64,000 nucleotides of DNA from positions 124,001-188,000 of the forward strand of contig VIIQ02000647.1 in NCBI GenBank assembly GCA_007449985.2, written 5' to 3'. The notes beneath the pieces were generated by a model, which saw nothing but the letters and a program-made list of their open reading frames with translations, was not told where the DNA came from and did no database searches. Position 1 is the stretch's first letter. Each line of letters opens with the position of its first letter. The DNA is from Desmodesmus armatus. Its lineage: Eukaryota > Chlorophyta > Chlorophyceae > Sphaeropleales > Scenedesmaceae. Shown one piece after another: positions 2,677 through 64,000 of the stretch. Both the position numbers and the translations under genes were made by a program.

Positions 2677-5600
2677 TCAAACAGCATGGCGCTTGAGGAA
2701 CTCTAGCTGCTTTGCCAGGTTTGGTCCCAGCGTCGGTTGCACATATGGATCAAAGTGGCCCACATCAAAAGTGACAAGGGTTCCCTGGGTGCCTTGGCCA
2801 CAGCAGCCGCTGCTGAGGCATATGGGCATAACTGATCCTTCTTGCCTGCAGGACACAGGGGAATTTATGCCATGCACAGTGCAGACAAACTCAGTAAACA
2901 GGTGTGAACAGGTGTGACAGCTGCAGGCCATACTACGTAGCTGGACTTGGCTGCGGCGGCTGCTGTAACAGCAGGACACCATGTACGATCACACCCAGGG
3001 CATTGGGTAGTGCGCTGAAGGTACAGTACAGTACCTTGAAGCGTGCATTGCAACAACCTTAATCAAGATCATCTCATCGATGATCGACAGTGGCTGGTTG
3101 AGAACAGCGGTGCACAATCAACATGACACAAGCCAAGGGTCAGGGTCACATGTACCAAGCTTACACACGTGTGACTCATATGTCAAAGCATGAACATGCC
3201 AAGCTTTGGGGAGGATCAACCCACACACCTACCTGCAATGATCATGAGTGGAGCTCGGACCTTATCCACAAAGGCAATCGGTGAGTACTGAGTGAGTGCA
3301 GTCTCAGTTGCAATGCGTGCCCTGGTCAAGTTCTGCCACTGGGCCTGCAAAACATACAGCAATGAAAAAGAATTTGATACACCGTCAACTGGCGAGAAGT
3401 GGACCGACATGGCAACTTGCCGTTGAACCCTTGATGCCCATGACTGCCTGTGTCATGTGGGGGCGGCGGCGGGGGGGGGGGGGGGGGGGGGCGGCGGCGA
3501 ATGTTTGCACGCCAGTCACAAAGGGAGCCTACATGTGACTGCCATACTTGCCGCGGAGGGTACTGCACTCCAGCAGCAAGGACATCCGATGATCGTGTGA
3601 CCGAATCTAGCAAGCACTAGATGATTATGCCAGCGTTGCCATGTATTGGCAAGTTTTAAAGGTGTCACTGACACCAGTAGCTTCCAAGGGTGTCACTACA
3701 CTACAGGTGGGCTCACCTCTGTGTGGGGGTGTGCGGCTGAGTAGATTTCCATGTCATGCTCAGTCAATTGCATCATGGCAGTACTGCCAATGCGGCCGGC
3801 CTGTACAAACACATGTGATCATGACACAGCATGGGTGAGCAAGATTATGCGATCGAACTAGCCGCCCACAAGCGGGTTATATTCTGGCAAGCCTGCAAGG
3901 CTCTGTGAGCCAGAATGCATGACTGTAACCACGCCTGATGAGGGCAATTTCTTGCACGATGCATCCACACCAAGCAGCTGTTGTTGCAACTGCACTGCCC
4001 AAGTCCTGACTGCAGGCCTGTCTGTACAGCTGCACGGCTGGTGCTTACAACAAGCCGTCCTCATGGCAGATACCTCTTAGGGTGCGGTCTTTTGACAGGC
4101 AATCCCCACTGGCAGGATGCTGTTGCCATAGCCGGCTGCTTCAAGGCTGCAGCTTGCAACTCGTCAGCCTGCAGCTCCCTCCCACCCTCCTCCATCCGTT
4201 TTCATGTCTTCTTTTCCCTCCCTCCCTCCCTCCCTCCCTCCCTCCCCTCCCTCCTCTCCCTCCCTCCCTCCTCCCTCCCTCCCTCCCTCCCTCCCTCCCT
4301 CCCTCCCTCCCGCCCTCCCTCCCTCCCGCCCCTCCCGCCTCCGCCCTCCCGCCCTCCCGCCCTCCCTCCCTCCCTCCCTCCTCCCTCCCTCCCTCCCTCC
4401 CTCCCTCCCTCCCTCCTCCCTCCCTCCCTCCCTCCCTCCCTCCCTCCCTCCCTCCCTCCCTCCCTCCCTCCCTCCCTCCCTCCCTCCCTCCCTCCCTCCC
4501 TCCCTCCCTCCCTCCCTCCCGCCCTCCCGCCCTCCCTCCCGCCCTCCCGCCCTCCCTCCCGCCCTCTCCCGCCCTCCCTCCCGCCCTCCCTCCCGCCCTC
4601 CTCCCTCCCTCCCTCCCTCCCTCCCTCCCTCCCTCCCCTCCATCCCGCCCTCCCTCCCTCCCTCCCGCCCTCCCTCCATCCCGCCCTCCCTCCATCCCGC
4701 CCTCCTCCATCCCGCCCTCCCTCCCGCTGTCTCCCTCACTCTCTCCTCACCAATGGGATATACACTGGCTGACCGCCATCCCTGCTGTCAGAAGCAAGGT
4801 CAGCTAGAGCTGCCATCACCACAAGTGCATTGCCTCTGGTTCCACGCATGGCTGCATTTGCTTGTGTGGCTTTGGCTCCGTCCAAGTGTGGCACCTGCTC
4901 AGCACAAAACACAGAGTGAGGTTACAACTGTGAACCTCTCCGAGAGTTGCGCAAGACAGTGCCTCATGTTTGACACTGGGCAGCACCAATCAGAGCTGCC
5001 CGCCCAAGGGGCAGCATGCTCAATGAGGTTGCGGCTTCTTGATACATGTCTGCTCCCTTGATCCTTGCTCTTGCTACAGAGTGTGCTGTATTACAGTAGT
5101 ACTTGCATCCCACCTCCATAAGAGTGCTGCATGCACACATCCACAGGCTGCAAACCACTTCTGTTCCAAAGCTGCTGTCACGATCAGAGTAAAATGAGTG
5201 CATTGATGTGGCGTAAGAGGTTCAGCAAGATACAGCAAAGGTCCATATACAGGCAGTCACAGACGCTGTGGTGACTGGGAGCTGTACAGAAAAGTAAAGT
5301 AAAAGTAAAGTAAGGTAAAGTAAAGTAAAGTAAAGTAAAGTAAAGTAAAGTAAAGTAAAGTAAAGTAAAGTAAAGTAAAGTAAAGTAAAGTAAAGTAAAA
5401 GTAAAGTAAAGTAAAGTAAAGTAAAAGTAAAGTAAAAGTAAAGTAAAAGTAACGTAAACAGCGCAGCACGGTTGGTGACACCCAGTACCGCTGGGTGAAA
5501 TGCAGCCATGCCACTGGGCCAGTGCCATTGGCAGCGTCTGTACTCACTTGGCTGATGACAGCCTTGATCTGGCCAGGCAGTTTGGAAGCCACCACAATGA

Positions 5601-6267
5601 CATGCCCGCCAGCAAAGGAAGTGCCCCATAGGCTGAGGCGATCTGCGTCCACGACTGACCTCATGTTTGTTTGAACGTGCTTGACAGCTGAGAACCAGTC
5701 TGCATGCTGCTTCTGGATGGATACCCACTGTCGAGGCAACCCATCAGATGAGCCCCAATGCCGGTAGTCAAACACAAGCACTGCAAAGCCAGCCTCTGCA
5801 AAGGGGCCTGCAAAGTTCCCAAGCCATGCCTTCTCCCCACCCATCCCGTGTGCCATGACAATGACAGGAGGCAAGCTGGCCTTGTTGCTGGAACCTTTGC
5901 TGATGTCCTTGCTGCTACTGCTGCTCTTGCTGTTACTGCTGCCCTTGATGGCGGTAGCTGTTATGGGGGGTGCCTTTGGCATGTACAGCGTTGCCCCACA
6001 CACCACGCCAGAGCAGTCGAAGCTGACACCTTGGGTGGTATAGCGACCTTGGTCCTTGACAGCTGCTTCGCGGGACCTTAGAAAAGACGCATCAGGGGCG
6101 TTCAAGGGTCCCTTGATGACTTGACCCTTCTTTGGGATGGCAGAGTCAGCTAGGGCATTGCTGCTGCTACTGCTGGAGTCAGGTGAAGCTAGAGCGGGGC
6201 TGATGCATGCGATAAATATTGATATTGTGACTATCGAAGGCAGTTTTGATGTTTTTCGCAGTTTCAT
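2677..6267 (-). CDS. Secreted/ER alpha/beta hydrolase (frameshifted last exon)
   Basis: A serine hydrolase of the alpha/beta fold. I start at the ATG at 6267 because it opens a signal peptide (MKLRKTSKLPSIV...ISPALA) before SPDSSSSS; an ATG 75 bases upstream is possible. Exon 1 (5548-6267) carries HGMGG and the nucleophile elbow GTSFAGG. Exon 2 is 4751-4894 (VPHLDGAKATQ...YIPL, phase 0). Two short, less certain exons lie near 4050-4165 and 3870-3900. Then comes 3233-3344 (WQNLTRARIA...MIIAG). The last exon, 2677-2845, carries the acid residue (KKDQLCP) and the catalytic His (VGHFDPY). Ser/Asp/His are therefore all present. The last exon is one base short: KKDQLCP and VGHFDPY lie in different frames, and the break is at a three-base C run (plus-strand GGG 2787-2789). 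Introns hold (TTTAC)n and (GGGA)n arrays. Substrate is unknown; esterase or dipeptidyl-peptidase-like activity is possible. Confidence 0.8.
3471..3491 (+). repeat. Poly-G tract (about 21 G)
   Basis: An uninterrupted G run on the plus strand flanked by GGC repeats, inside an intron of the minus-strand hydrolase. Comparable runs occur at 2520-2533, 10009-10029, 10359-10378 and 11342-11357. Lengths are prone to sequencing error. Confidence 0.9.
4211..4735. repeat. (CCCT)n / (GGGA)n tetranucleotide array in hydrolase intron
   Basis: About 525 bases of CCCT repeats with scattered CCCG and CCCAT variants. The array fills most of the intron after the exon at 4751-4894. In the transcript of the minus-strand gene it reads GGGAGGG, a homopurine tract able to form G-quadruplex or triplex structures. 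Long Pro/Leu/Ser and Gly/Arg/Glu open frames over it are by-products of the repeat. Confidence 0.95.
5287..5455. repeat. (AAAGT)n / (TTTAC)n pentanucleotide array in hydrolase intron 1
   Basis: About 30 copies of a TAAAG unit with a few AAAAG variants. It begins roughly 90 bases past the exon 1 donor (GTGAGT at 5547-5542) of the minus-strand hydrolase. Reading through the donor gives a repeating YFTLL peptide, which is not expected to be protein. Confidence 0.95.
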
Positions 6268-7500
6268 GGCGAACGCCGTGGACACTGTCGCTGTTGCAGC
6301 TTTGCCGTTGCAATTGTTGATACGAGACCGGGGGCTGTGCAAGTCACTGAATGTCTAGCAGTATTTTTCAATGACCAAACTTGATTGATGCTGCAATCAC
6401 ATGGAATTTGTGGGTAGTTGTTGGGGTTGAAGCGCGGGCTTGCTTTTCACTCGACCAGGCTGCCTCGACAGGTGAGGCACGGCCGTCCGCTGACACTTTT
6501 TAGCGGGAGCTACCTATATGGCTGGATGGTGTCGTGAGCATCAACGGGCAGGGCGAGGGGCACAGCGGCTCAACGTCAATAGCACTGACTCTTGTCCTTT
6601 CTGTGAGTAAGCCTAGCTTAATAGAGCTTTCTTGCAACCTTAATTGTCTGTTACAGTAACCTCGACAGGGTGCAGCTGCACTTGGGATGTGCAATTGCAG
6701 TTCCCCCGCGTGCCGGGGTTGCCGGCTGGCCTTCTCAGCAAAGCACGTTCAACAGTAATGCACGCAACCGTAGTGGTTCACGATGATCATGCATGTTTCT
6801 GACACAACATCGCGAAACATCACAGGTGTCAGGCACCTGCAGCTGCAGATTGTGCATGTGCATGCCATGACCACTCATGAAAAATACACTGTGAGGAGCA
6901 CCGCATGCACATCCGGTCTAGCAAACGTGTTGCTCAATGTCTGAAGTCACTCTGAGTACCTATTGCAGTACGAGGAGTCTGTCAAGACATGCACCCCGCT
7001 GGCAGGTTGCGGCGTGCACCTGCGTCATGAAGTTGCAGCATGTACAGGCTGGCAGCCACGGCCGGTTCTTGCTGCCAGGCATGGCCTGTTTCTGTATGGC
7101 TCACACATCTTCGTAGTCACTCTTGAGCCAGCCCAAGTCAAGCTACTGTTGCAACAGCATCACTTTTCAGAAAGGTGAGGCAGGAGTCCTGTGGATATGA
7201 GTGCACGCCAACACTTGGCTGCGATCTCAAGAGCAGCAGCTGCCACAGGAAGGCAGCCAGGGAAGCCTGCCGACATGCCCTCATCCTTTCGCGGCAACCA
7301 AAAGCCAGTGCTCACCCACATAGTACCGCCGAGGTACGGCAACGCCACACAATGTTACAGCCACCGCACAACTGCCAGCACCCACAGGTCTTGCCTCCCT
7401 CTGGCTGGGGTATTGAGAGCTCAGGACCAGTCAGCACTGCAGCACAATACTGCACATACTGGACAGCCAGTACATATGATATGCCATTACAGAAGTACAG
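6268..7500. other. Region upstream of hydrolase and downstream of mogA; nothing recognised
   Basis: Apart from the 5' leader of the hydrolase (up to at least 6342) and the 3' flank of the MogA gene, I see no domain-bearing frames, RNA genes or repeats of note. Short ORFs here lack splice signals and family motifs. Confidence 0.45.
7487..7491 (-). terminator. TGTAA motif behind the mogA stop codon
   Basis: TGTAA on the minus strand lies about 10 bases after the stop codon of the MogA gene. UGUAA is the established polyadenylation signal of volvocine green algae. The distance is short for a 3' UTR, so this may be coincidental. Confidence 0.35.
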
Positions 7501-8908: not shown

Positions 8909-9358
8909 GGTGCTGCCAATGGGAGTATACTTTGAGTGCTGGGTGCTGGGTGTCAAGTCTGGTGGACTGTTGGTGAAAGGGTGTGTCGGCGGTGGCAGCA
9001 ATCCTGCTGCTGTTGGGGGTTTGATGCAAGATGTATGTTTTTCTTGGTGGCTGTGCAGAGAACTGCATTGACGAGGCACAACCCGCATGAACTGGGTTCT
9101 GGGAACCCACAGCAAAACCTCCAGCAGAAACCCTGTTACGCGTTCAGGCAAGGCCACATTCTGCATGGGTGGTGAGCCAAACGCCACTGGTTACACACTG
9201 AACAACGTCCTCTTGCTCCTTCCTCCAGCACAGCCCCAACTCTGGCTGGGTGCATGCATAGGGGTTGAGTCAGTAGGGTGCCTCAGTTCAGCCCAAAGTC
9301 TGTCTCTAGTGCCGTAAGGCAGACGTTGGGTTTCTGATCATCTTCAAAAGCTATCACA
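8909..9358. promoter_or_regulatory. Divergent intergenic region between mogA (-) and SNF7 (+)
   Basis: The start codons of the two genes face away from each other across 450 bp, so both 5' leaders and core promoters must lie here. This holds unless the mogA start is the more distal ATG at 9187, which would shorten the region to 171 bp. I see no clear TATA box. Confidence 0.5.
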
Positions 9359-9994
9359 ATGTTCAAGAAGCTATTTGGGGGCGCCCAGAAGCCCCTGGTG
9401 CTCCAGGCACTAGCACAGCAGCGAACCAGACCATCAATGCGATGCAGAGCCTGGCAGAGCGCGAGGAGCAGTTAGGAAAGAAGAAGGATCTGCTCCAGAA
9501 ACGCATCGATGACGAGATGGAGAAGGCACGCGAGTTCACCAGGCAAAAGAAGAAAAGCCAGGCGCTCATGTGCCTCAAGAAGAAGAAGATGTATGAACAG
9601 CAGCTAGAACGCATGGATGCTCTGATTTCCCGCGTCCTGGAGCAGCGCAACATGCTGGAGGAGCAGCAGACCACCATTGGAGTGCTGGGTGCCATGCAGG
9701 ACGCAGCTAAGGCCCAGAAGAAGACCATGCAGGTGGGCATCAGGGGTTTCATTGCTTTGATTACATTGCTTGGCCTGTAGCACCCCCCTCTGATGCAGCA
9801 CACCCCCGATCGGGCGTGACCAAATTTCTTGGCACAGTGTGCAAGAGGGGGGGTTACAGTTTGCTTTCATTGGAAGGTGGTCTGTTATTTTCATTGACAT
9901 AGTGTGCGTTTGACAGTCAAAGGTTGCACACAGAAGCAGTTGCATGCATGCTGCATGGCTGGGGCTACCAGTCCAACGTTGTTTGTGTGAGTGT

Positions 9995-13484: not shown

Positions 13485-16400
13485 ATGATCACGTTTGAGA
13501 TAGGGGGCATGATGCTGGGTGGCAGGCAGCTTCGCCTGCCAACAGCCCTAGGCCTGCTGGTGGTGTTGGGTCTCCTGTCTGGAAGCTGCTTCCTCCCTGC
13601 AGCTGCTGGGGAAGATGGCCACCTTCGCAGGCTGTTCGAATCTCTTGATAAGGACCATGACGGTCAGTTGAGGAGGCAGGAGCTCAAGCAGTACATTGGG
13701 GGCCTCGCCCCAGAGTACAGCTCCAGCACCAAGCTAGACCAAGCAGTGGAAGCAGCCATCGGGCGGTTGGACAGCCCTGACGTGGGCTTTGGGGTCAGTT
13801 GGAAGGAGCTGGAGCAGCATTTGCACACGCTACTGCAGGTGAGAGGCGTCATGAGACTCCTGGCTGGCTGTGGCTGTGTGGGCAGCATCTGTAACAGCAT
13901 CAGCACCAGCTCGCATCAGCATCGCTACTGGTCTGCCTGCTTTTACAGGCAACCAGTAGCCGCATCGTGGTGTCATTAGCACACCTGGGCATGTCCTGCA
14001 GCAGGCTAGCATACCTTCTGTTCATTGCCCCACCCCTTCTCTGACGCCTGAACAGAAGCAAGCAGTGCTAGCTTGGCTTGCCACAGCATACATCGACTTA
14101 TCTGGTGCTAACATTTTTCCTTGCTGATGTCCCCAGGATGCCAAGGTTGCTGACTGGGTGACACACGGGCTGGGGATGCCTCAGTATGCTGAGGCATTCC
14201 GTAGTAACTCCATAACGGTGAGCAGCTGCTGCCCTGCCCACATTTCATGTGGCTTTCACTCCACCTCAGCTTCCTCAGCACACTTTGATGTAAAGAACCC
14301 CCCTTCGTGACACACGCGCTTATACCCAACCTCGGAATGTCACATCCTTGGATGGTTGCATTGGCTGGTTGCACTCCCTGTGCCTACACACCAGGAGACA
14401 AAGCAGGAACTTGCCCGACCCAGAGCTCTCAACACCAGCTATGCTGCAGTCGTACAGCAAGCCTCGGACAGAGGCCTCGTGACTGCGCTCAGATGTCTGC
14501 CTGCCTAGCATGCTGCTGCATACCCAATGTGTGCTGCTCGTGTGGTGTACCTTGCAGGCTTTGGACCTGCCGATGCTGGTGAATGATGGAGGAAAGCTCC
14601 TGCAAACTGAGCTCAAGGTGTGACACACAACACAGCAGCGACGGCAGCATCAGTGTAGTGTTCTGTCTCCCTGGCGGTATCCGCTAGCAACAGCTTCAGG
14701 CAAGGCATGCGTGCAGCCTAGTGCTGCATGCTGCGACAGTCCAGCTGCTATTGGTGCAACAGGAAGTCCATGTTGTACCGTGTGTTGTTGTACCCCAGAC
14801 AAAACGAGGTGCATGCATAAGTGTATGTGTTGTGTCTGCTCACACCAGGTTGAGAGCCCGTTGCACCGGCAGCAGCTGCTGCGCGCCATGCAGCGCCAAA
14901 TCCTGGGTCTTGGCTCCCCGCCCGGCCCGGTGCAGCATCTGCTCTGTGTCGTCAGCCCCGTCAGCTCACCAGCAGCACACACACCCACTCCGTCAGCAAC
15001 AGACGCATCCAGCACCAGCACACATCAACCTGCCGGGGCTGATGCAGGAGCAGGAGCAGCAGCTGGTGCTGGTCCTGCAGCTGCGGGTGTGGTGTGCTCC
15101 TGGTTGCCTCCTGCTGATGCAGGCCAGCCTGGCATGCACAAGTATCTTTTGCAGCGTGTTGACCATTCGTCAGCCGCAGCAACATGGCAGACCGTGGCGG
15201 AGCTGCAGGACAGTCTCAGCATGCGGTACAGGGATGTACTGCCACGGCCTGGCGTGTACCAGTACAGGCTTGCGGTGAGTGGGCTGATATGTGCTGACGT
15301 TTACGGTGCGTGCTTATGGTAGCAGCGCGTACCTCACGTGGCTATCGGATGACAGGCATGGCGGCACCCTAGTGCGATAGTTGTGCACATGTAAGAGAAG
15401 AAGGTGACAGCTGCCCCAGCATCCAGGCGGTGAAGCACCAACAGCAGCAGCAGCACGCTGGGAGAGCTGCAGCGAGCCCTTGCGCTCAGAAGGCATTCCA
15501 GCATGTGTGTGTCATCTTGTTCACTGTTGCTGAATGTGATGTCCCCGGCTGAAGCTTGTGCTTTTGCTGATCTGCCATGTGTGATGATGTGGTCCGCAGG
15601 CCTGGAATGTGTATGGGCGCTCACCGTACGTGCTGAGTTACGATGTGACAGTACCATCCGCAGCAGCAGCAGCAGCAGCAGCAGCGCCAGATGCACCAGC
15701 TACAGCAGCAGGGACGCAAGGCGTGCTTACGGGACTGGCAAGCTCAGAACAGCAGCTGCCCCGCGTGGTGCCATACGTTGCAGGGCAGCAGCAGCACCCA
15801 GCTAGCAGCCCGCCTGTCTGGCCCCAGCAGCAGCAGCAGCACGTAAGGACCGTGGGCAATGTGCAGGGCGGCTGCGGTTCTGCTGATGCAACCAGTGAGC
15901 CAGCGTGTGCAAATGGCCAACAGCAGCAGCTCAGCACAGGGCAGCAGACGTTTTCAAAGCCTGATGGCTGCAGTGCAGAGGGTCAGCGCAGCAGCAGTGT
16001 GGTGTGGCTTGTCGGCCTGGACGCCCAGCAGCCATGGAAGCATAGCACTCCTGCAACTGCGGCGGGCAGGGCGGCACAGCAGGGGTGGCTGCATCCATGC
16101 GCGCTGCAGGAGCTGCTGACGGGCGCAGTGGCATAGCTGGCCGTGCTGCTCTTGTATCAGCATCAGCTGGGGCATCAGCTGGGGCACCAGGTACTGCTGC
16201 TGGTGGCAGCAGTACGGCGGGTAACAGCAATAGCAAGCCAGCGATGACTGCGCGGCTCGCAGCGTTGCTGGGCAGCGCTTGGCACAGCAGCATGGACGGC
16301 TGGCTCAAGGCACTCGTCAACAGCCTGACAGCCTTCGTGCTGGTAGTGCTGCCGATCTGTGTGAGGCTGCTGCCTGTGCAGACTCTCGCGCAGGTGGTGC

Positions 16401-18332
16401 AGGCACTAGCCTGGCTGCTGCACTTCCTACCCAACGCTCTGCGGCAGCGGCTGCTGCTACGACCAGCAGCCGTACTGTCGCTACAGCAGCAGCACCCGGG
16501 ACGTGTGGTGCAGTTTGCACCCGACTTGCTGGCAGGTGCGCAGGGGAGCTGGAGTGGCGGTGGTGTCAGCGGCAGCAGTAGCAGTGGTGGCTCCCGAACT
16601 GGCACACCACGGAAGAAGCCTCCTGTGTTGCTAGAAGCTTCCACAGCGGGAGGCAGTGTTGCGTCTGCGCTTGCGGGGCAGGTGGCTGGTGCCCAAGGGG
16701 GTCAGGGCTCTGCAGTGAAAGCTCCTGCCGTCGGTGCCGCTGCTGCTGACCTCGCCGCAGCGGCAGCAGCCGCAGCAGCAGCCAGACGGCGGCTCATGCC
16801 TCGCAGTATCAGTGAGTCTGACCTCGTGAGGCAGCACCGGTCGCGGAGCCCATGCACACGAATTGTCACTGGCAGCAGGGAGACGTGCAGCGGCAACAGC
16901 AGCAGTTCAGGGGGCAGGAGCCTCATCACAGGGCTTCCTGACGCGGCGGCAGCAGCAGCAGGACAGCGCGGTGTCTCTGAGGGAGGGATTGCAGCACCGG
17001 GTGTTGCTGCTGGTGCAAGTGCTGCCCGGGAACTCAAATTCAGCGACCACAGCAGTGACGGGCTCGGCGCTGCAGCTGTGACAGCGGTTGGTGTGGACAG
17101 CGCCGGTATAGCAGCAGCTGGTGTCACTCTGTTAGGAGGTGCACCAGCAGCACCTGTGCCAGCAGACGCAGATGCGTTTGGCAGCATGGGTGAGGAGGTG
17201 GAGCGGGAGCGAGAGCTGCAACAGTATCTGTTGTACAGCAGCCATGGAAGCATCCTGCCAAACAACAAGTGCTGCGGCTTTCCAGGGTGAGTGAGGTTGC
17301 TGTTTTTGCAGACTTGTTGTGTGCTTCCAGTGCACTGCTGGACTTCGTACAACATTCTGAACTCTGCTGCCCTAGAGGGGAAGCAGCACCAAAGTAAACT
17401 GCAACAGCTGTGCCACCGGGTTTAAAAGAGCTCCATCTTACACCTGTTTCCTGTCCCTCTGCTTCTGCTGCAGGTGCCAGCAGCAGTTTGGCCTGCGCCA
17501 CTGGAAGGCCACCCTGCAGCGGCACTACTGCGGCCGCTGCCAGCAGGCCTTCTGCATGCAGCACACTGCATACAGCCCCCACGGAACCAGCGGTACCTGC
17601 GGCGTGCAGTCACGCTGCCTGTGCATCGACTGCTTCTACGAGTACACTCCAGAATACCAGGCTTTCCTCTCGTCCAGGAACACCCTGGTTGGCAAGAGGA
17701 GCAGGAGCGGCCCGCCAGCGGCGGCTGCGGCAGCTGCAGCGGCGGCGGCGGCTGCTTTTGGTGGGGTGTGGGAGGGTGACGGCGGCAGGAGAGGGGATGG
17801 TGGCAGCACTTCCGCTGGTGGTAGGCCTGCCAGTAGTGTGCTGAGTAGGCTGGTACCCCTGGTCCTGAGCAGCAGCAGCAAGCAGCTGGCAGGGGCAGAA
17901 TGTGTAGGTGCAGGCAGTGGCGCAGGCAGCGTCCTAGGGGGTGATGGGTCGCGGCCAACTGAGCAGCAGGGACAACCAGAGCCCCCGCTGTGTACAGCAG
18001 CCCCCGCGCATTTGACTGCGGACGGCAGCCACGGTGCTGAACAGCCGGGGCACTTACAGGAGCCGGTAAGCAGTTTGCAGCAGCAGCCGGTAGCCAGGCA
18101 GAGCTCCCTAGGTGTAGGGTCGATGGCTGTACAGCCTGCTGCTGCCTGCTCTCAGGGCATGAAGAGCCGCATGCTGTGGGGCCGGGGCTTGACCAAAGCG
18201 CTGGGGGTGGTGCGGTTCAAGCATGCAGGGATGTGCATGGTGCTAGCCAGGCACCACTCCCTGGGGCAGCCGCAGCAACAGCAGGAGGAGCGCCAGCAGC
18301 TGCAGCAGCAGCACTTGCGGGCTTGGGGGTAG
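13485..18332 (+). CDS. Membrane protein with lumenal EF-hand + SAM (STIM-like), FN3-like region, TM segment and FYVE-type zinc finger
   Basis: Exons: 13485-13838, 14137-14217, 14558-14617, 14849-15274, 15600-15842, 16070-17286 and 17474-18332, about 1079 residues. Exon 1 has a signal peptide (LPTALGLLVVLGLLSG) and a perfect EF-hand loop DKDHDGQLRRQE (residues 55-66), then a second degenerate helix-loop-helix (SPDVGFGVSWKELEQHL). Exons 2-4 form a SAM domain (VADWVTHGLGMPQYAEAF, LQTELKVESPLHRQQLL). Exons 4-5 look like an FN3 domain (YLLQRVDHSS...VYQYRLA-AWNVYGRSPY). Exon 6 has a membrane helix (ALVNSLTAFVLVVLPICV). Exon 7 completes a Cys/His finger (CCGFPGCQQQF, RHYCGRCQQAFC, RCLCIDCF) of FYVE type, lacking WxxD. 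The tail is Ala/Gln-rich. The frame changes between 15842 and 16134. I favour an intron 15843-16069 (GTAAGG...GGGCAG), which restores it; a one-base loss is the alternative. Predicted role: calcium sensing in the ER or vesicle lumen coupled to phosphoinositide membranes (inference). Confidence 0.75.
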
Positions 18333-19368
18333 GGCCTGTGGTGGCTGCGGGCAGACAGACCATATGACTGTATGTTTTTGGCGAGAGGTGCTCATTGTGA
18401 TTTGTCTCTTGATGACGCGATGCTCAGAAATGGTGACGCACATGTACAGGGTTGAAGGCATGCGCCCAGGTGACAGTACGCGTTGTTTTCATTTTGTTTT
18501 GCATCTGCCGCACAAGAATATTTGTGATGCTACTGTAGAATGGGCAACTTTGGGCATACGCGGCACACGCAAGATGTAGTTTAGCGACAGTTGGTTTGAG
18601 TGTGCTTTTGGACGTTTATGCGTGGCAACGACATGTTTTTGGTTGACTGAGTGACTTGGTGGCCTAGTAGATGGTTTGGCAGTTGGAGTGTGCTTTCGGC
18701 AGTTGGGCAATGGCTGTCCCATGTTGAGTGTAAGGGTGACTTGTGAGTGCCGGGGTTGGCTTGTACAAAGAGCCTGTGCTGGCATGTATTGGTGCAGGAG
18801 TGTGACGTGTGGAATGCACGTTGTCTCCCTACTCACTTGACCATGTCGTGAAGTTGTGCTACAACTTTGCAACTGGAGTGCTGATGTACTACAACTGGAT
18901 TGCTGATGTATTGCGAGGTGGTGCCGCATGCTGTTGTCGCAGCTGTGTGGTAAATCACCTGCGCAGGGGCCTGACAAGTTAGCACGGCCAGGGTGATGTA
19001 ACTGCTTGATGATCCCTTTGAAATGGGCTGTTTCGGGCATGGGGTTGCGGATAACCAATTTGCTGTCAGGGGTGGTATTTGTTGGTGCTGCGCAAAGGGG
19101 AGAGGCCTGTGGGCAGCTTCGGTCGTACATGTATTCTTGAAATGTGATACATAATAAGGTTACCTGGGTGAAAGCCGAATGCTGCTGCGGAAGGTGGACC
19201 GTCGTCGACACTGAGTGTCATGACACGTGATGACGGGAATTTCGTGTGACTAGTGTCAGTGCACGCACGTGTCCCCGGCCAATCTCATTCGTTGTTCAAC
19301 CAAATAGTCATAGCGGTCTCCAAGTGGGACACTCGACACAAACACACGTAGACGGGCATCCGCCCAAT
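18333..19368. other. Intergenic; 3' region of the EF-SAM-FYVE gene and upstream of the PPR gene
   Basis: No supported gene. A TGTAA occurs near 18727 on the plus strand and could be the polyadenylation signal of the upstream gene. The long minus-strand open frame 18489-19211 has no motif and is probably spurious. Confidence 0.45.
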
Positions 19369-40465: not shown

Positions 40466-43400
40466 CTAGCTGCTGGCCCCTTTGGGTGCTGCTGCTGGCG
40501 TTGCTGCTGGTGCCGGTGGCTCTTCCGGACTGGTTTTGCAGGCTGCCAGCAGCCGCGCCACCGCGGGGCCTATGTGTGCGTTGGACCCCAGCACACGCCT
40601 GCTCATGACGCCCCAGGGGCCGCCAGCGGGATCCAGCAGCACGCCGCCTGCCTCCTGCAGGATGATGGCTCCTGCAGCGTGAGAAAGCACACATATCAGA
40701 TTATAGTATGATATAAACATAGAACATATAGTGTATTATGACATAGCCTCCTGCAGAATGATGGCTCCTGCAGCGTCAGAAAACACCCACAGAACCATGC
40801 AGACAGCTGGTTGATCAGACATGTATGTATCAAACTGAGCTTCTATCTCAACCATACAGACCTAGTGACAGCCGATGGTTGGACGTATGGACTGATATGC
40901 GTGGCTGGTGCCACTTGATGCGCCATGTTCCATGCAACCCTTGCTCCAAAGTGCTGCTGCTTTCTGCATCGTCTGCTGCAGCATGCTAAAAGTTTGATGC
41001 AGTATGCACCTGCATCCAAACGAATCAATCCCGGGCTGACACTCCAGTGCTGCAAACTGCCCTTGCTAGCAGTGGTTTCACTTGCATAACCCCCAGCCCC
41101 CAAAATAGTAGTACCCCAACATTACCAGCAGCAACCTGTGCCCCACATCTGGCTACGTGTCACTTCTGAATGCCCGTCGTAACCCAGAGCAAAATGTCAA
41201 TTGTTTTGTGTTGCGATCATCGCAACATGTGATATGAGCAGCCTGTGCTGTCTCTGCCATGCAACTGCAGCAGACATTGGGCATACCTGCTGCAACGTCC
41301 CAGCAGCCGCCAAACCCTATCTCGTAAAACGCGTCCAGCCGCCCGCAGGCCACCCCCGCCAGGTTCATCGCACATGACCCGCAGCAGCGGACACTGCATT
41401 GACAGAACCCGCAGCCACAACAAACTTGTCAGTTCCGCGTGTAGTGCATGCTGGCTTGGTGTAACAAATCAACACAAGAGACTTCCATTGTGCTGTGGGG
41501 TGGTGTGTTGTGTTGAGTCAGTGGGCTACCAGCATGGTGCAGCAGGGTCAGTGGAATGGGCATCTTTGGCGTGCCACGCTGGCAGTCTGTACTGCAGCCT
41601 ACACTGCAGCATGTGCTGCAGCCTGTATTGCAGCCTGTCTGCAGTCTGTACTGCAGCCTGTGCTGCAGCTATACTGCAGCCTGTACTGCAGCTATACTAC
41701 AGAGCTGTTTCTCAACTGCTGAGCTGCGCCCATACTATGGCTTGCTGAGCTGCAGCCATATTGTGGCTAATGCTGAACTGCCGCCATAATATGGCTAGTG
41801 CTGAACTGCAGCCATAATATGGCTAGTGCTGAGCTGCAGCCATACTATGGCTGATGCTGAGCTGCAGCCATATATGTCCTGTAGTACAGGACAGCAGTGC
41901 TGGGCCCAGTGCATCATTACCTCCGGAGCAAGTAGTCAAATGGTTCAGAAAGTCATGCCACAGTCTCCCTTGCCAAGTGAGTGCAAGCCTCACCTGCGCA
42001 TTTTGGCAATCAAGGTCTGCATGCGCTCAAACACGGCTGCCACAGTCTCGGGAGACCGCATGGTGCCGACCTCCGTAGCAAAAAGACCCTTTCTCAAGTC
42101 TGCAGGCGCACAGCACAGCACAGCACAGCAAAGCACTCATTCGTCTTGCACATGGTGCATCTTTTTCCAGTTATTGCTGTGAAACGGTGTTGACTTTTTT
42201 TCACATGCGCAAGAGCCTGTGTCTTGTCGTGAGGTGACTTGGTCAATACTGTGGTTTGCTGAGCCAAGCGCAACGGGCCCCTGGTGCCTGATGCTCAAGC
42301 CTCTGCAACAGTCCCCCAGCAAAACGTATTTATGGGGAAGAAAAATGTTACACGCAGACACATTCGCCACACATCAATGGCATTGCCTGCCAGGGTTGAA
42401 TTGGTTGAAACACTAAGGTGGGGAAAAACCCCGATCCCCGTCAGTGGTTTGCACCACCTACACCAGATAGTAGCCTGATTCAAAGCAAGACAGCAAAGGA
42501 GACTTCATTGACATCCTGAGGCAACACGGCAACCTTGTACAGAAGTGGGAAGCAAACAGCTAGGATCCAGCAGGCAGCAGCACCAAGAAATACCCCTTGT
42601 CAGGTCAGATACCCAAAGTCAGCCCAAGAAGGCGCGCCCGGCGCACTTTCATCTTGTACAGAGTGTATGCCAACGCAGACTGCTCTCCATGTTGAGACAC
42701 TGATCGCACACATTCAGGGTCGTCCAGTACCACAGCATCAGACAGGGGGAAGGCCGGGCAAGCGGCGCGCAAATCATCGTAAACAGGGCACTCCAACAGG
42801 AAGTGCTTCAAGTCTTCCACATTACGACTAGTTCCTGTCCTTGCCAGTACAGCTTGGCGGTGGGCCAAGGTAGCATCCTCTCCACAACACAATTGACACA
42901 GGCGGTCAGCACGGGGCACAGAGACCCTTCGCTTACGGCCCTGTTCTATTTCAAGGTGGGCTGAACCAATACGCAACTGGGCAAGGTTACGCGCTACATC
43001 AAAGGGCAGGCACAACTTGATATGCGGAGGGGCATCGTCCCTTGAGAAGGGGTTGAAGCCAGGATCTAGCGGGTAGACCCATGCATGATGTGTAAGCTTG
43101 TGAATGCCGATAGAAGGGGCGGAGCGTGGGTCACCTTGGGTGAGACCTCGCCACCGGGCCCTGAATAGGGCAGCCAGCGCGGCCTGCACTGCAGACTCCT
43201 CCCACCTCTGTTGCATCACCCAGTCAAGGGACTGCTGCTGCCAATCACCAGCAAGCAACTGCAACGAGCACATAGTTTGCAGGAAACAAGAGGACCAACA
43301 CTCGCGACAACCTGCAAGTGCAAGCGCGACATCCTCACGCCACACACACCCCGCCAGGGATCTCGGCTGATCGTCACGAGCATCAGACAACTTCGTCCAC

Positions 43401-46400
43401 CATCGCGCAGCCAGCACCACCCAGTGATACATAATGGGTCGACGATGCATGTCCCTGTACACGACGTCAGTGGCAATGCCTTTGATAGACCCAGTCGTGA
43501 TGCGCAAGAACGATGTGTGTACCTTCTCGGCCTGGGTATCGTAAGGCGTGTTCTGCAGGCGCAGGAGCAAATATCGCGGGTCCCCATATGTGAGATGCAT
43601 ACGAGAGGACTGGCTCAACAAGTATATCGAACATTCTGCACTTGATGTCAAACTGAGTCAAACACGAGCGGCGACAACGGGTCAGCATGGCATGCATTGC
43701 CTTGCTGCCAGACACCGCCAGAGCATCGGAGGCGCCCAGGAGCCCACGGGTCTCATGCACGCGCACACCCAGATAAGCGTGCTCACTCTGCCGCGCAATC
43801 TCGCGCCTTCGATACACAAGACGGAACCCTGCCGGCACCTTCATGCCACGCTGGCGGAAACAAACGGCACAAGTCTTGTGCGGGGCAAGATTCACCTCCA
43901 TCCCAAACAGGTGGCAGAACACACTCAACACATCAACAAGCTCCTGCAATTCGCCCTGCTCAAAGCTCAGGAGACCAACGTCATCAGCATACATGACATC
44001 TGGCACATGCAGCCCACTAAGCACCGGCCCTGCCCCTGGCAGCTTATGCCTGAACATGTAATGGGGAAGAAAATGTTACACGCAGACACATTCGCCACAC
44101 ATCAATGGCATTGCCTGCCAGGGTTGAACCGGTTGAAACACTAAGGTGGGGGAAAACCCCGATCCCCGTCAGTGGTTGGCACCACCTACACCAGATAGTA
44201 GCCTGATTCAAAGCAAGACAGCAAAGGAGACTTCGTTGACATCCTGAGGCAACACGACAACCTTGTACAGAAGTGGGAAGCAAACAGCTATGATCCAGCA
44301 GGCAGCAACACCAAGAAATACCCCTTGTCAGGTCAGATACCCAAAGTCAGCCCAAGAAGGCGCGCCCGGCGCACTTTCATCTTGTACAGAGTGTATGCCA
44401 ACGCAGACTGCTCTCCATGTTGAGACACTGATCGCACACATTCAGGGTCGTCCAGTACCACAGCATCAGACAGGGGGAAGGCCGGGCAAGCGGCGCGCAA
44501 ATCATCGTAAACAGGGCACTCCAACAGGAAGTGCTTCAAGTCTTCCACATTACGACTAGTTCCTGTCCTTGCCAGTACAGCTTGGCGGTGGGCCAAGGTA
44601 GCATCCTCTCCACAACACAATTGACACAGGCGGTCAGCACGGGGCACAGAGACCCTTCGCTTACGGCCCTGTTCTATTTCAAGGTGGGCTGAACCAATAC
44701 GCAACTGGGCAAGGTTACGCGCTACATCAAAGGGCAGGCACAACTTGATATGCGGAGGGGCATCGTCCCTTGAGAAGGGGTTGAAGCCAGGATCTAGCGG
44801 GTAGACCCATGCATGATGTGTAAGCTTGTGAATGCCGATAGAAGGGGCGGAGCGTGGGTCACCTTGGGTGAGACCTCGCCACCGGGCCCTGAATAGGGCA
44901 GCCAGCGCGGCCTGCACTGCAGACTCCTCCCACCTCTGTTGCATCACCCAGTCAAGGGACTGCTGCTGCCAATCACCAGCAAGCAACTGCAACGAGCACA
45001 TAGTTTGCAGGAAACAAGAGGACCAACACTCACGACAACCTGCAAGTGCAAGCGCGACATCCTCACGCCACACACACCCCGCCAGGGATCTCGGCTGATC
45101 GTCACGAGCATCAGACAACTTCGTCCACCATCGCGCAGCCAGCACCACCCAGTGATACATAATGGGTCGACGATGCATGTCCCTGTACACGACGTCAGTG
45201 GCAATGCCTTTGATAGACCCAGTCGTGATGCGCAAGAACGATGTGTGTACCTTCTCGGCCTGGGTATCGTAAGGCGTGTTCTGCAGGCGCAGGAGCAAAT
45301 ATCGCGGGTCCCCATATGTGAGATGCATACGAGAGGACTGGCTCAACAAGTATATCGAACATTCTGCACTTGATGTCAAACTGAGTCAAACACGAGCGGC
45401 GACAACGGGTCAGCATGGCATGCATTGCCTTGCTGCCAGACACCGCCAGAGCATCGGAGGCGCCCAGGAGCCCACGGGTCTCATGCACGCGCACACCCAG
45501 ATAAGCGTGCTCACTCTGCCGCGCAATCTCGCGCCTTCGATACACAAGACGGAACCCTGCCGGCACCTTCATGCCACGCTGGCGGAAACAAACGGCACAA
45601 GTCTTGTGCGGGGCAAGATTCACCTCCATCCCAAACAGGTGGCAGAACACACTCAACACATCAACAAGCTCCTGCAATTCGCCCTGCTCAAAGCTCAGGA
45701 GACCAACGTCATCAGCATACATGACATCTGGCACATGCAGCCCACTAAGCACCGGCCCTGCCCCTGGCAGCTTATGCCTGAACATGTAATGGGGAAGAAA
45801 ATGTTACACGCAGACACATTCGCCACACATCAATGGCATTGCCTGCCAGGGTTGAACCGGTTGAAACACTAAGGTGGGGGAAAACCCCGATCCCCGTCAG
45901 TGGTTGGCACCACCTACACCAGATAGTAGCCTGATTCAAAGCAAGACAGCAAAGGAGACTTCGTTGACATCCTGAGGCAACACGACAACCTTGTACAGAA
46001 GTGGGAAGCAAACAGCTAGGATCCAGCAGGCAGCAACACCAAGAAATACCCCTTGTCAGGTCAGATACCCAAAGTCAGCCCAAGAAGGCGCGCCCGGCGC
46101 ACTTTCATCTTGTACAGAGTGTATGCCAACGCAGACTGCTCTCCATGTTGAAACACTGATCGCACACATTCAGGGTCGTCCAGTACCACAGCATCAGACA
46201 GGGGGAAGGCCGGGCAAGCGGCGCGCAAATCATCGTAAACAGGGCACTCCAACAGGAAGTGCTTAATGCAAGAGCTCTATGAACAAGCCAAACAAGAGAG
46301 GGCTAAGTTCGCTACCCTGCTTGGTGCCAGAGGCTGTGGTCAAAACCTCACCCAGCTCACCATTAACGGCCACCTGACAGCAAACACGGTCATACATGGA

Positions 46401-60000: not shown

Positions 60001-63000
60001 AGCTGCTGCTGCTGGTGCCGCCTCAGCACCCTCTGGCACCTTGACTGCCTTGTAGAGCAGCAGGTATGCCATGTGCCAGTCCCCACCACCACACAGTGCC
60101 AGCACATCCTCATCTTTCTTCATGACGAGCTCATCATCGTCAAACAGCACCCAGCTGCCGTCGTGCTGCTTCACCCAAGACACGTAGTGCCCCGAGTCTG
60201 CGCTGCGACCCTTGTGAGTGAGCACACCTGTCAGCTCGTACTTGCCTGGGTGGTGGGACACAGCAGCGGCGGCAGCAGCAGAGGTGCGAGTTGGACCCCT
60301 TGTCAGGATGTTGATGCACAGGAAACCCCACAGTAAGAAGTGAAACGGCCAAGATGTGTTTTGCAGCTGCACAAGGCTGCATGCTGGCGAAAGAAGAAGG
60401 CCCGCAACTGCGTTGGTAATGAGGCAGTAAATCCCTTTGTGGTGAAGCCCTGGACGGCCGCTGGCAGCACCTGCCAGGCGTGCCAGCCAACAACAGTTTC
60501 ATGGTGTCACTGCGCAATGTTTGAGTGTCCTGGTAGGCGGTCAACCCTAGTGTACACCCCACACACAGAGGCAGTGCCACTCAATGCCCTTACCTGTCAG
60601 CGCACCGACCACAGACCCAGAGCTGCTTGCACCGCCCTCCGCATCCTTCATATCCACATCACCACCAGCTGCAGTAGGTGCCTCACCGGCTCCTGCTGCC
60701 GCCTCTGCGGCTCCCGGACCGGGCTTGGGCCCGTCCTCGGTTTTGAGCTGCTTTGCTGTGCGCTTCTGCCGTGCCAACATGTCCTGGTAGTTTCTGTATG
60801 CCTCCCGGGCTGGCTGGAGCTGCTGCTGCAGCTCGGGCGTGCAGAAGTCGTAGACATCTAGCTCTGCTGGGAACGCCACCTGCATAAGGGAGGGGGCAGA
60901 TGGACATCAATCAACACAATGTTGGATGGTTGATGCATTCGCTGGATGCAATGGCTGTGCCTACACAACGCTGGCAGCTGCACCAGGCCAAACTTGGGCT
61001 TCCAACACTGTGCACTACAGTACTCCCTCTGTCAAGGTATTGGCCCTGTAACCAATTCCAGCCGCAGCACACACAAGTGCGTTCTTGCAGAAGCTTGTTG
61101 TGATGCACAGCTCCATCTACATTTCAGGAAACACCTCACTCAGCCAGCCAGGCAGCCAGATAGCCTACCTTGCGCAGGATCTTGGCCTTCTGGCCACCAT
61201 CTGGTGTGCGCTTGAAGAAGAAGCGCATCATTTGTACTGTGAGGTAGGGTGAGAGGCCAGCAATCTTGCTGCTGCCTGTGAACTGCACCAGCCTGTCCAC
61301 CGTGGCGCTGTTCTTCTCCCTGCACAGCGGGAGCAGCAACAGCAGGTGTGCAGGTGTGCAGGTGCATCACGTGTTTGACACCCACTTGCGTGTGGTGAGT
61401 CCCCAGCTGTTCTGCCAGGCATGGTCCTTCCTCCCCCCCCCCCCCCCCACACACACACACAGAGCAGCTGCATGTGTTTTGGGGACAGCAACAACAGAAG
61501 TGCAGGTGCAGCAGCTGTATTTGTTGGGGACAGCAACGGCAGGTGTGCAGGTGTGCAGCTGCATGTGTTGCAAACTTCCAGGCATGCGGCAACCGTCTCA
61601 CCACGGACGACAAGACCACTGCGCTGTGCAAGCTTCACTGAGCCGGCCAATCCGCTGTGTCCTGTTGTGCCTGGTTTCAACTCTGCACAACTTTGCAGAG
61701 TTGAAGCCAGGCACAGCATGACACAGCGGATTGGCCGGCTCGGTGAAGCTTGCACAGCGCAGTGGTCTTCGTCACTTGATGCTTCCGCCTGCCATGCTGT
61801 TATAAGGATCACTAGCCAGCTGACATCACCATGTCGGCCCCCCACCTGTCCTCCACCAACCCCAGGGCAATACCCTGGTGCAGGTAGTTGACATCTTGGC
61901 TGATGTTGCACTTGAGGGAGTAGACCAGGCTGTCCTCCTGCACAGCAGTAAATGACATGCAACACACTTTGTTGCATTTGATTACAGCAATAGTTGACAC
62001 TGAACACACTTTGTTGCATTTCATTTTGCACTTCATGCTTCTGCAAGAGGATTGAAAACTCGGTACATGGTGTGTAGCGCTCAAGTTGCAGCTACTGCAC
62101 GAGGGAAGCCTGGCAGCAATTGCAGAGGGACTAGCAGTACCAGCAACTGGTGGTAGCTAGTGCCTGCAGTAAGTCCAGTGTACAATTCAAGTAATCAAAT
62201 GCAGGCTTGTGCTGTAAGATATCGGTGGCCAATGCCACCTGCTGTAAGTGCCCATTGCATTGGCAAGGGACGCTCTTACTGCATGGCTCAGCAGCAGAGC
62301 AAGCAAGCTTGGTGTGCTGCTTGACTTACTGCTGAACCTGCAGCACAGGCATAGTCAGGTCTGACTTTGTGTCAGCACCCACCTTGAACTCCTCTCCTGT
62401 CTCTTCACTCTTCAGCGCTGTGTGCAGCTTCACACCAAACAGCTGGTCAACCATTGGCTGCCCCACCTCATCCTGTGGCCACCAGGAACGCAGCAACAGC
62501 GACACGGCTAAGCAAACGGACGACCCCGTAGAATGCAGTGGGCACAGTCCACACCTGTACTAATCTGCTGCCGCCGCAAGTCTGGTGCTGCATTGCCAGG
62601 TCACAACCAAGCTTAGCTGAACCCATAAGCGGCGCCCGTGCACTGCTAGCCCTGCGCAGTCAAGCAATGACTGAACGTGTGCATGTGCATACATGTGCAT
62701 GGGCATGAGGTTTTGTGCCTACACCGGCGTTGATTGTGCATACTCGGCAGTTGATTGTGGTGCCGCAACTGACCTTGAGACCCTCCTTGAGTGTGTACAT
62801 GATGTTGGTGAAGCACTCCTCCGCGTCCTGCTGCATGTAGAAGCCCTCGTTGGTCTGCTGCGCAAACTGAGGGAAGCGCTGCCGCAGCATCAGCAGGAAC
62901 TTGAAGGGCGGGAAAGGCTCCCCGCCCTTCTTCAGGTCCTGGAACAGCTCCTGGTTGCTGCAAGCAGCTTCTTGCCTGTATCTGTGCTGAGGCTGGAGGC

Positions 63001-64000
63001 GGGAGCTGCTGCTGCTGCGGGGTTGAATCCCAACACTGCGTCACGCAAGCCCTGTATGCTGTACAGGCACTGCACGGTGCTGTTCATGTAGCAGGTGTTG
63101 CCTAGGTTCTTGAGGCCGGAGCCGTAGGCCTTGGTTGCCAGGGTGTTCTGCTCCTCTTCTGGAAGGTCCTCCACAAACTTGGGCATGTTGGCGGGAGCAT
63201 CGACCTTGACCTCGTCTGCTGAGCCCATCATCATGAGGGTCATACCCTCCTTGGGCTGCTGCTTGCCCCAGTCGTCGTCCTTCAGCTGCCCACCCTTGAT
63301 GAGAACCTTCTGACGGTCTGGGGGCACACCGCTGAGGGTGAACAGCTGGCTCTTGAAGACGAGAGGTGGCTGCGACAGGTCCACCTCGACATCCTTGTAC
63401 AGCTCCTTGCCCCACTTGACGTTGACCTTCATGCTGCAAACACCAGACAGTGCACACCACAGTGTTGAGACTGCTGTCCAAAGCTGGGTCTCTGGTTCCT
63501 TGGACTTTCACCCCTTGGTGTCCTTCCTTCCCGCTGCTTGACAGGGCTTGCTGCTAATATGTCACCCAGGCTAAAGTACAGCTGTTTGGGTTGGCTTGCA
63601 TACCCATGCAGCAGCCAAGTGCAGGAACTGCTTCTCGTCATTCAGATCACACCTGCTTTCGGCCCTCTTCGCTGTCCCGCTCCACACAAGTAGCTGAAGT
63701 GCTGTCGCAAACACGAAATCAACAATCCGGCTGAAACGTTGCGCTTGAGCTTGAGCTGGCACACACTTTGCTGATCAAGAAGGACGAACTGCCACAACTG
63801 CAGAACAAACAAAGGGCTGGCGCTGAACACACACTAAGTGGTGCATGGTCATCATGGATGCCTTGAAAGCTGGATCAGTCCAGCCCCATGACAGTTACAT
63901 GACTAAACGCTGACAGCTTACTGCCTCTTCATCTCCCTCCTCGACCTTGCTGCTGGTCTACCCGCAGGTACGCAATGCTCTGGGCTCCAAGGTCAGCAAG
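57037..64000 (+). CDS. CCA1: CCA-adding tRNA nucleotidyltransferase (5' part; continues past window)
   Basis: Adds the CCA end to tRNAs. Exons 57037-57399, 57946-58157, 58659-58792 and 59147-59238 join in phase; a fifth begins at 63968 and runs off the window. Exon 1 has an Arg/Ser-rich organelle-targeting presequence, then the class II signature TVLRAAGGWVRDKLLGKQSA with the catalytic DIDIAL. Exons 2-3 give RRDFTINSLFYNL, and exon 4 gives PLRVMRAVRFATRFGFAPD. After ASSDE the next family block (compare yeast ALKSKISRER) is not found until 63968: VRNALGSKVSK follows a perfect CCGCAG acceptor in the right phase (0). Intron 4 is therefore 4729 bp and contains the whole UBP6 gene in antisense. 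An internal Met before LTAEEKALF could start a cytosolic/nuclear form, as in yeast CCA1. Confidence 0.93.
58793..59035 (+). repeat. Tandem duplication in CCA1 intron 3 starting at the donor site
   Basis: 58793-58910 (GTGAGCTGAGATGTCAGAGCG...GTGTGCTGT) is followed by a diverged copy at 58911-59035 (GTGAGCTGAGACTGTCAGAGCG...). Shared internal blocks include GGAAGCGGCAAC, ACAGCCCAGCACA and CAGCTTGCTGT. The copied unit begins with the intron's donor. Confidence 0.8.
59970..59974 (-). terminator. TGTAA motif directly behind the UBP6 stop
   Basis: Minus-strand TGTAA starts about 10 bases after the UBP6 stop codon at 59983. A possible green algal polyadenylation signal, suspiciously close to the stop. 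Confidence 0.35.
59983..63432 (-). CDS. UBP6: Proteasome-associated deubiquitinase UBP6/USP14 (nested in CCA1 intron 4)
   Basis: Trims ubiquitin chains at the 26S proteasome. Exons 62774-63432, 62383-62472, 61846-61937, 61169-61319, 60594-60879 and 59983-60245 give 513 residues (human USP14: 494). Exon 1 starts with the ubiquitin-like domain (MKVNVKWGKELYKDVEVDL, VLIKGGQLKDDDW) and has the Cys box GLKNLGNTCYMNSTVQCL, then FAQQTNEGFYMQQDAEECF. Later blocks are DEVGQPMVDQLFGVKL, SLKCNISQDVNYLHQGI, YLTVQMMRFFFKR, LDVYDFCTPELQQQL and the His box SADSGHYVSWVKQHDGSW with GGGDWHMAYLLLYKAV. Catalytic Cys, His and Asp (LFDDDE) are present. Exon 1 is 659 bases where 660 are needed: GKKLLAA and NQELFQDLKKGGE lie in frames one base apart near 62957. 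An Ala/Gly/Glu-rich linker precedes the last exon. The intron 61320-61845 holds a long perfect-looking hairpin. Confidence 0.95.
61612..61769. repeat. Near-perfect 76 bp inverted repeat (hairpin) with 6-base loop
   Basis: Left arm 61612-61687 and right arm 61694-61769 are reverse complements except for four positions, with loop CAACTT (61688-61693). Weaker pairing extends a few bases outward (GACG/CGTC). In plus-strand RNA three of the four differences are G:U wobbles and one is a C/U mismatch; in minus-strand RNA they would be A/C and G/A mismatches. It lies in an intron of UBP6 (-) and at the same time in intron 4 of CCA1 (+). Confidence 0.92.

Follow-up and report, generated by a model that had tools for sequence, protein, structure and literature searches.

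The closest described counterparts of the protein considered here are the STIM calcium sensors and the Orai channel. According to passages of two papers, Orai is present in green algae and early plants and STIM is not, and another sensor probably serves them (PMC11085791; PMC8318260). For Chlamydomonas, one section of the 2021 paper reports that Orai is present and that STIMs appear to be missing (PMC8318260), and the existence of store-operated entry in land plants is questioned in part of a more recent article (PMC11894410, 2025). Here we describe a gene of the green alga Desmodesmus armatus found in a 64,000-nucleotide stretch (the window) of contig VIIQ02000647.1, assembly GCA_007449985.2, positions 124,001 to 188,000 of the forward strand. 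Its predicted product contains, in this order, a signal peptide, an EF hand, a hidden EF, a SAM domain of the STIM type, a fibronectin type III (FN3) domain, a membrane stretch, a zinc-finger-like module with twelve ligands and a basic tail. We consider it fairly probable that it belongs to a green-algal family of single-pass proteins that works like STIM on the lumenal side, through a proposed mechanism of clustering in the endoplasmic reticulum (ER).

The lumenal half is an EF-SAM of the STIM type

A signal-like N-terminal hydrophobic stretch with hydropathy above 2 is present in seven of the eight family sequences that carry the EF hand, and the canonical loop retains D1, D/N3, D/N5 and E12 in all eight that reach it. 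This EF hand would face the lumen. When the window sequence alone was compared with the Protein Data Bank (PDB), the best match was the STIM2 EF-SAM (4.5e-6, residues 47-179), with C. elegans STIM next (2.8e-4). The homologous Chlorella sequence alone gave weaker results, with C. elegans STIM in rank 4 at 0.0034. With a profile built from seven EF-SAM sequences only the three STIM chains were matched over the full EF-SAM, among the best 60 of 450 rows, and three proteins made up of several EF hands only stood slightly above them. The SAM domain alone placed the three STIM chains at ranks 1-3 among the 37 sequences matched (between 3.4e-6 and 9e-6), followed by liprin-beta-1 (2.5e-4), which has several SAMs, and by liprin-alpha-3 and SARM1 (both 1.1e-3). 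The span of the family SAM match equals the STIM length and exceeds the span in the other rows compared by 1 to 5 residues.

Further evidence came from pairwise alignment of profiles with two STIM sequences by hhalign, which gave 97.1% with an E-value of 5.4e-11 over 118 columns, the hidden EF included, and a gap-free alignment of 56 columns for the SAM domain alone. The best of 60 column shuffles scored 18.4 against the STIM profile, compared with 66.5 for the real alignment. Other SAM exons of the D. armatus genome, which were compared as exons only and so perhaps as incomplete domains, scored lower with the family profile (17.8 bits for the best and no more than 4.3 for the rest) than STIM did (28.7-30.1 bits). 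An AlphaFold model of the relative P0005 matches the STIM EF-SAM structurally over residues 37-188, with EF and SAM packed together in a single unit, as in the C. elegans STIM EF-SAM. Two results weigh against this assignment: the Pfam family for the STIM1 EF (PF25578) did not match the window protein at E<=10, and in the relatives its best match was 0.014, at 16 bits against a cut-off of 32.2. NCBIfam gave weak matches only, the best of them of EF type. A sequence-only reading of this gene had proposed a STIM-like EF-SAM with a hidden second EF and had named structural comparison with STIM as its check; the PDB, profile and hhalign comparisons all support that proposal, and the geometry of the P0005 model agrees with that of STIM. 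The lumenal half is thus an EF-SAM of the STIM type.

Gene structure and the green-algal family

The gene runs on the + strand from an ATG at 13485 to a stop codon at 18332, and its parts are as follows (window coordinates).

13485..13838, + strand: exon 1, with signal peptide, canonical EF and hidden EF; GTGAG donor; homologous to P0001
13485..13610, + strand: signal peptide, about residues 1-42; N-terminal hydrophobic stretch with an 11-residue hydropathy of 2.93
13647..13682, + strand: canonical EF loop DKDHDGQLRRQE
13767..13811, + strand: second, degenerate (hidden) EF segment LDSPDVGFGVSWKEL; covered by the hhalign alignment with STIM; helices 81-95 and 106-119 in the P0005 model
14137..14217, + strand: exon 2, first part of SAM
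14558..14617, + strand: exon 3, middle of SAM
14849..15274, + strand: exon 4, last SAM helix (to 14914), low-complexity insert and most of FN3
15600..15894, + strand: exon 5, the final strand of FN3 followed by a linker; 3' end provisional
16191..17286, + strand: exon 6, membrane helix with a linker before it and a cytosolic linker after it, then the first Cys pair of the finger; 5' end provisional
16322..16378, + strand: membrane helix SLTAFVLVVLPICVRLLPV; hydropathy 2.23; aligned to P0012 and P0013
17273..17286, + strand: first part of the finger, C-x4-C (an intron splits the finger)
17474..18332, + strand: exon 7, rest of the finger, C-terminal tail and stop codon
17474..17633, + strand: remaining finger ligands, HYCGRC..FCMQHT..SPHG..C..C.C..C; twelve-position pattern common to all 11 intact fingers
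18165..18233, + strand: conserved basic C-terminal segment SRMLWGRGLTKALGVVRFKHAGM; picked by eye in nine sequences including the window
18729..18733, + strand: TGTAA, candidate poly(A) signal; a second TGTAA lies at 18997

Five introns are bounded by GT and AG and leave the frame intact. Another one has to separate the FN3 exon from the membrane exon because the reading frame changes there; its best donor is at 15895 and several acceptors fit up to 16190. The protein has 1056 residues if the acceptor lies at 16190/16191. Similarity to P0012 does not place this acceptor, since the frame 0 stretch 15843-16133 is no closer to P0012 than shuffled sequences are (16 of 100 shuffles reach the observed similarity). 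A one-base assembly error may be an alternative source of the frame change.

The database searches reach only relatives that share exact words with the query. Residues 40-330 of the window protein, scored against the 7993 candidates with most shared words, gave one match, Chlorella vulgaris D9Q98_006407 (8e-39). The EF-SAM of that protein in turn gave 11 rows, of which ten are family members; the eleventh, P0011 (E 0.74), was discarded as unrelated. The window finger added three further members from 20 candidates. In seven of the 13 relatives (P0001-P0006 and P0014) EF, SAM, FN3, membrane stretch and finger stand in one sequence. The others are partial: P0008 starts downstream of the first EF loop, P0013 consists of membrane stretch and finger only, the sequences of P0007, P0009 and P0010 end inside the finger, and P0012 starts within the last SAM helix and joins the SAM end to FN3, membrane helix and finger. 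P0004 contains intron-like inserts. The named members come from Chlorella vulgaris and two Micractinium species, and C. vulgaris and M. conductrix belong to the Trebouxiophyceae. The M. conductrix sequence, P0003, is a gene model fused to a methyltransferase in which roughly the first 630 residues represent the family; it is annotated as catechol O-methyltransferase-like, and such a fused model probably hides the family in databases. A tree of the fingers shows three groups, mostly with weak support, in which the window groups with P0012-P0014 apart from Chlorella, again weakly, and P0008 falls there too on a long branch. Conservation in 13 relatives rules out a chance or low-complexity artefact. 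As the searches need shared exact words, the family may extend further, for example to Chlamydomonas. Back-translated patterns found no relatives in viral contigs or prokaryote genomes. The sole paralogue match in the D. armatus genome is of 22 residues on contig C213 (33256-33321, - strand; 0.008-0.03), which resembles the finger end; it looks decayed, as the last Cys is lost and a stop codon follows immediately, and is possibly a decayed copy or fragment.

The frame difference between the two halves, with the first frame stopping at 16136, could be read as the mark of two adjacent genes, one for a secreted EF-SAM-FN3 protein and one for a membrane-finger protein. Both halves are nevertheless present in single proteins in P0001-P0006 and P0014, and P0012, which the form of its name suggests is an assembled transcript, joins the SAM end to the finger. 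The intron from 15895 is phase-compatible, and TGTAA, which we take to be a possible green-algal poly(A) signal, is not seen in the window from 15390 to 18729. The two-gene reading, which is highly improbable, was rejected on these grounds. The single gene assumed in the sequence-only reading is thus upheld, the Chlorella gene model likewise contradicting a break.

FN3 region, membrane helix and cytosolic half

The region between the SAM domain and the membrane helix has a fibronectin type III fold, as had been suggested, and is variable between members, with large inserts. The membrane stretch that follows has a hydropathy maximum of 1.33-2.23 in all 14 sequences including the window, with modest values in the Chlorella group and P0008. 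A single membrane helix with the finger on its far side is supported.

The finger pattern C-x4-C..H-x-C-x2-C-x4-C-x2-H-x5-H-x5-C-x5-C-x-C-x2-C, with twelve invariant Cys and His residues, is found in all 11 intact fingers; three broken ones were left out of the counts. From this ligand pattern the finger would bind three zinc ions. FYVE fingers that bind phosphatidylinositol 3-phosphate (PI3P) carry the signature WxxD, R(R/K)HHCRxCG and RVC. The motifs WxxD, R(R/K)HHCRxCG and RVCxxC each occur in none of the 11 fingers. At E<=1 the Pfam FYVE model matched eight of the 11 (best 0.0031), AN1 four (best 0.0069) and IBR three (best 1.8e-4). The window finger scored 14.1 bits for FYVE against a cut-off of 27.8, and its E-values for IBR and AN1 were better than for FYVE, all three scores lying below cut-off. 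As a single sequence against the PDB the finger matched an octaheme reductase (0.033) and eS31 (0.053), both unrelated, and the Vps27 FYVE finger at 0.23. As a profile against solved chains it matched the C2H2 fingers of WT1 first, over its first half only (3.6e-5 when the fingers are summed and 0.043 for the strongest of them alone), with FYVE at 0.14-1.2 and AN1 at 1.6. Two AlphaFold predictions were of low confidence in the finger, and the list of structural matches was taken up by FN3 and is uninformative about the finger. FYVE-like is a fair description of the sequence, but with no PI3P motif in any of the 11 fingers and a FYVE score of the window finger below cut-off, the earlier proposal of a PI3P-binding FYVE finger is not supported.

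The C-terminal tail is basic, with a net charge of +4 to +8 in the nine sequences picked by eye. An amphipathic C-terminal helix was considered and dropped, as 225-811 of 1000 shuffles reach it and there is no excess. The SOAR domain was not listed at E<=10 in the window protein and P0001, nor at E<=1 in nine relatives, and its best match in the D. armatus genome (0.40) was below cut-off. These domain searches are in agreement with the view that the cytosolic side lacks the STIM coiled coil.

Orai and other calcium components of the same genome

An Orai-like channel, which the sequence-only reading had suggested looking for, is encoded outside the window on contig C657 (277571-279151); its joined exons match Pfam Orai-1 at 123 bits against a cut-off of 25. 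The protein aligns in two stretches with 4hkr, which we take to be Drosophila Orai. At the filter position of the first transmembrane segment (TM1) it has Gln (codon CAG) in place of the Glu found in the aligned animal Orai. A section of PMC12893689 describes the human Orai1 E106Q change as a loss of function in which calcium flow is abolished. The Gln speaks against a plain equivalent of the animal CRAC (calcium release-activated calcium) channel in this alga; the exceptions would be a pore built on other residues or an assembly error at this base. IP3R, TRIC and the STIM-EF family gave no match in the same genome, in a search in which the positive controls were silent too.

Proposed mechanism and alternative explanations

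The protein would reside in a calcium store, the ER or a different one, its EF-SAM facing inwards; by its anatomy it would read lumenal calcium there like STIM. The calcium-bound EF-SAM would be compact; on emptying of the store calcium would leave the EF, the EF-SAM would open and the proteins would cluster. Clustering would gather the cytosolic fingers and basic tails and so raise their affinity for an acidic or phosphoinositide-containing membrane or for a protein partner, and an ER contact site would form where the store had emptied. Finger and tail would act as the effector in place of the SOAR coiled coil of STIM, with the plasma membrane carrying Orai, or an endosome, as candidate targets. 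As no SOAR, a defining feature of STIM, was found, the algal protein is not filed as STIM; its lumenal half is a STIM-type EF-SAM, and it probably works like one. There is perhaps one chance in several that green algae do have STIM, in the sense of an EF-SAM store sensor that arose before animals and whose algal branch would link the emptying of the store to membrane contact and to Orai or another target, using a zinc finger with a basic tail where STIM has SOAR.

It is similarly doubtful, if conceivable, that the protein is the missing activator of the algal Orai, gating it through finger or tail without SOAR. A STIM-type EF-SAM and an Orai gene do occur together, a co-occurrence for which one genome was examined. 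According to part of PMC7795233 the STIM C-terminus is polybasic and binds plasma-membrane lipids, and the algal family also ends in a basic segment; a passage of PMC11085791 expects a different protein of similar function in these groups. Set against this are the SOAR results and the Gln at the filter, given the effect of E106Q reported in the section of PMC12893689 cited above. An unlikely explanation is a receptor or adhesion protein of the cell surface or secretory pathway, with EF-SAM-FN3 outside, calcium merely stabilising the fold and the finger acting in sorting inside. FN3 domains are common in surface receptors, the one here is clear, and no KDEL- or KKxx-like ending was seen by eye at the C-termini. 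However, animal STIM also lacks the classic KDEL signal, the EF-SAM geometry is that of STIM, and the FN3 region varies between members. Less likely still is that EF and SAM were joined independently of STIM, by convergence from an algal SAM. The named members are all green algae, found by searches of the limited reach described above, and a section of PMC7016017 (2020) places the origin of STIM near the base of the animals. Against convergence, of all the solved SAMs matched that of STIM is nearest to the family SAM and equal to it in length, and the genome's other, perhaps incomplete, SAM exons score well below STIM.

Among the records listed, none was found by title or by the start of the abstract to describe an algal protein of this kind before, a search with most subscription journals outside its scope and a mention there possible; the relevant sections of PMC11990657, PMC9694693 and PMC7935092 describe none. 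The EF-SAM protein, whose family also occurs in Chlorella vulgaris, gives the question of the missing sensor a named gene. It shows that the STIM-type sensor module is separable from its effector and can be coupled to a very different device on the cytosolic side. If the protein is an algal STIM, store-operated entry would have arisen before animals, and its cytosolic effectors would be interchangeable.

Surroundings in the window

Upstream of the gene lies a Snf7/CHMP4 (ESCRT-III) exon (9310-9780, + strand; Pfam 4.1e-14), probably a chance neighbour. An alpha/beta hydrolase frame (5257-6354, - strand) enters an AAAGT tandem repeat at 5291-5458, and a TCCC repeat is found at 4215-4725. Part of a reverse-transcriptase gene is duplicated in near-exact tandem (42581-44290 and 44309-46018, offset 1728), with identical runs of 723 and 986 bases and one differing base between them. 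At 62932-63507 (- strand) there is a ubiquitin-like domain and the start of a ubiquitin hydrolase, presumably USP14/Ubp6-like. No RNA families at gathering score and no tRNAs were found in the window.

Comparison with known systems

The finger shares the order CxxC, CxxH, CxxC and weak profile matches (0.14-0.37 to solved FYVE chains) with the FYVE fingers of Vps27, EEA1, HRS and WDFY3, the CxxH being present in Vps27 as in the algal finger. It differs from them in its first pair, C-x4-C, in an extra invariant His and Cys and in the absence of the PI3P motifs. The spacing CxxC-x4-CxxH-x5-H resembles that of AN1; the window finger scores below cut-off for both AN1 and IBR. The first half resembles the C2H2 fingers of WT1, but the algal finger is without the second His pair and has an extra C-x-C-x2-C at its end. 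The Orai of the same genome differs from the aligned Orai in having Gln in place of Glu at the TM1 filter. The closest parallel is with STIM1 and STIM2, in which the signal peptide, canonical EF, hidden EF, STIM-type SAM and single membrane helix downstream are all shared; the algal protein differs in that FN3 is placed between SAM and membrane helix and in that its cytosolic side, where no SOAR coiled coil was found, consists of a twelve-ligand finger and a basic tail.

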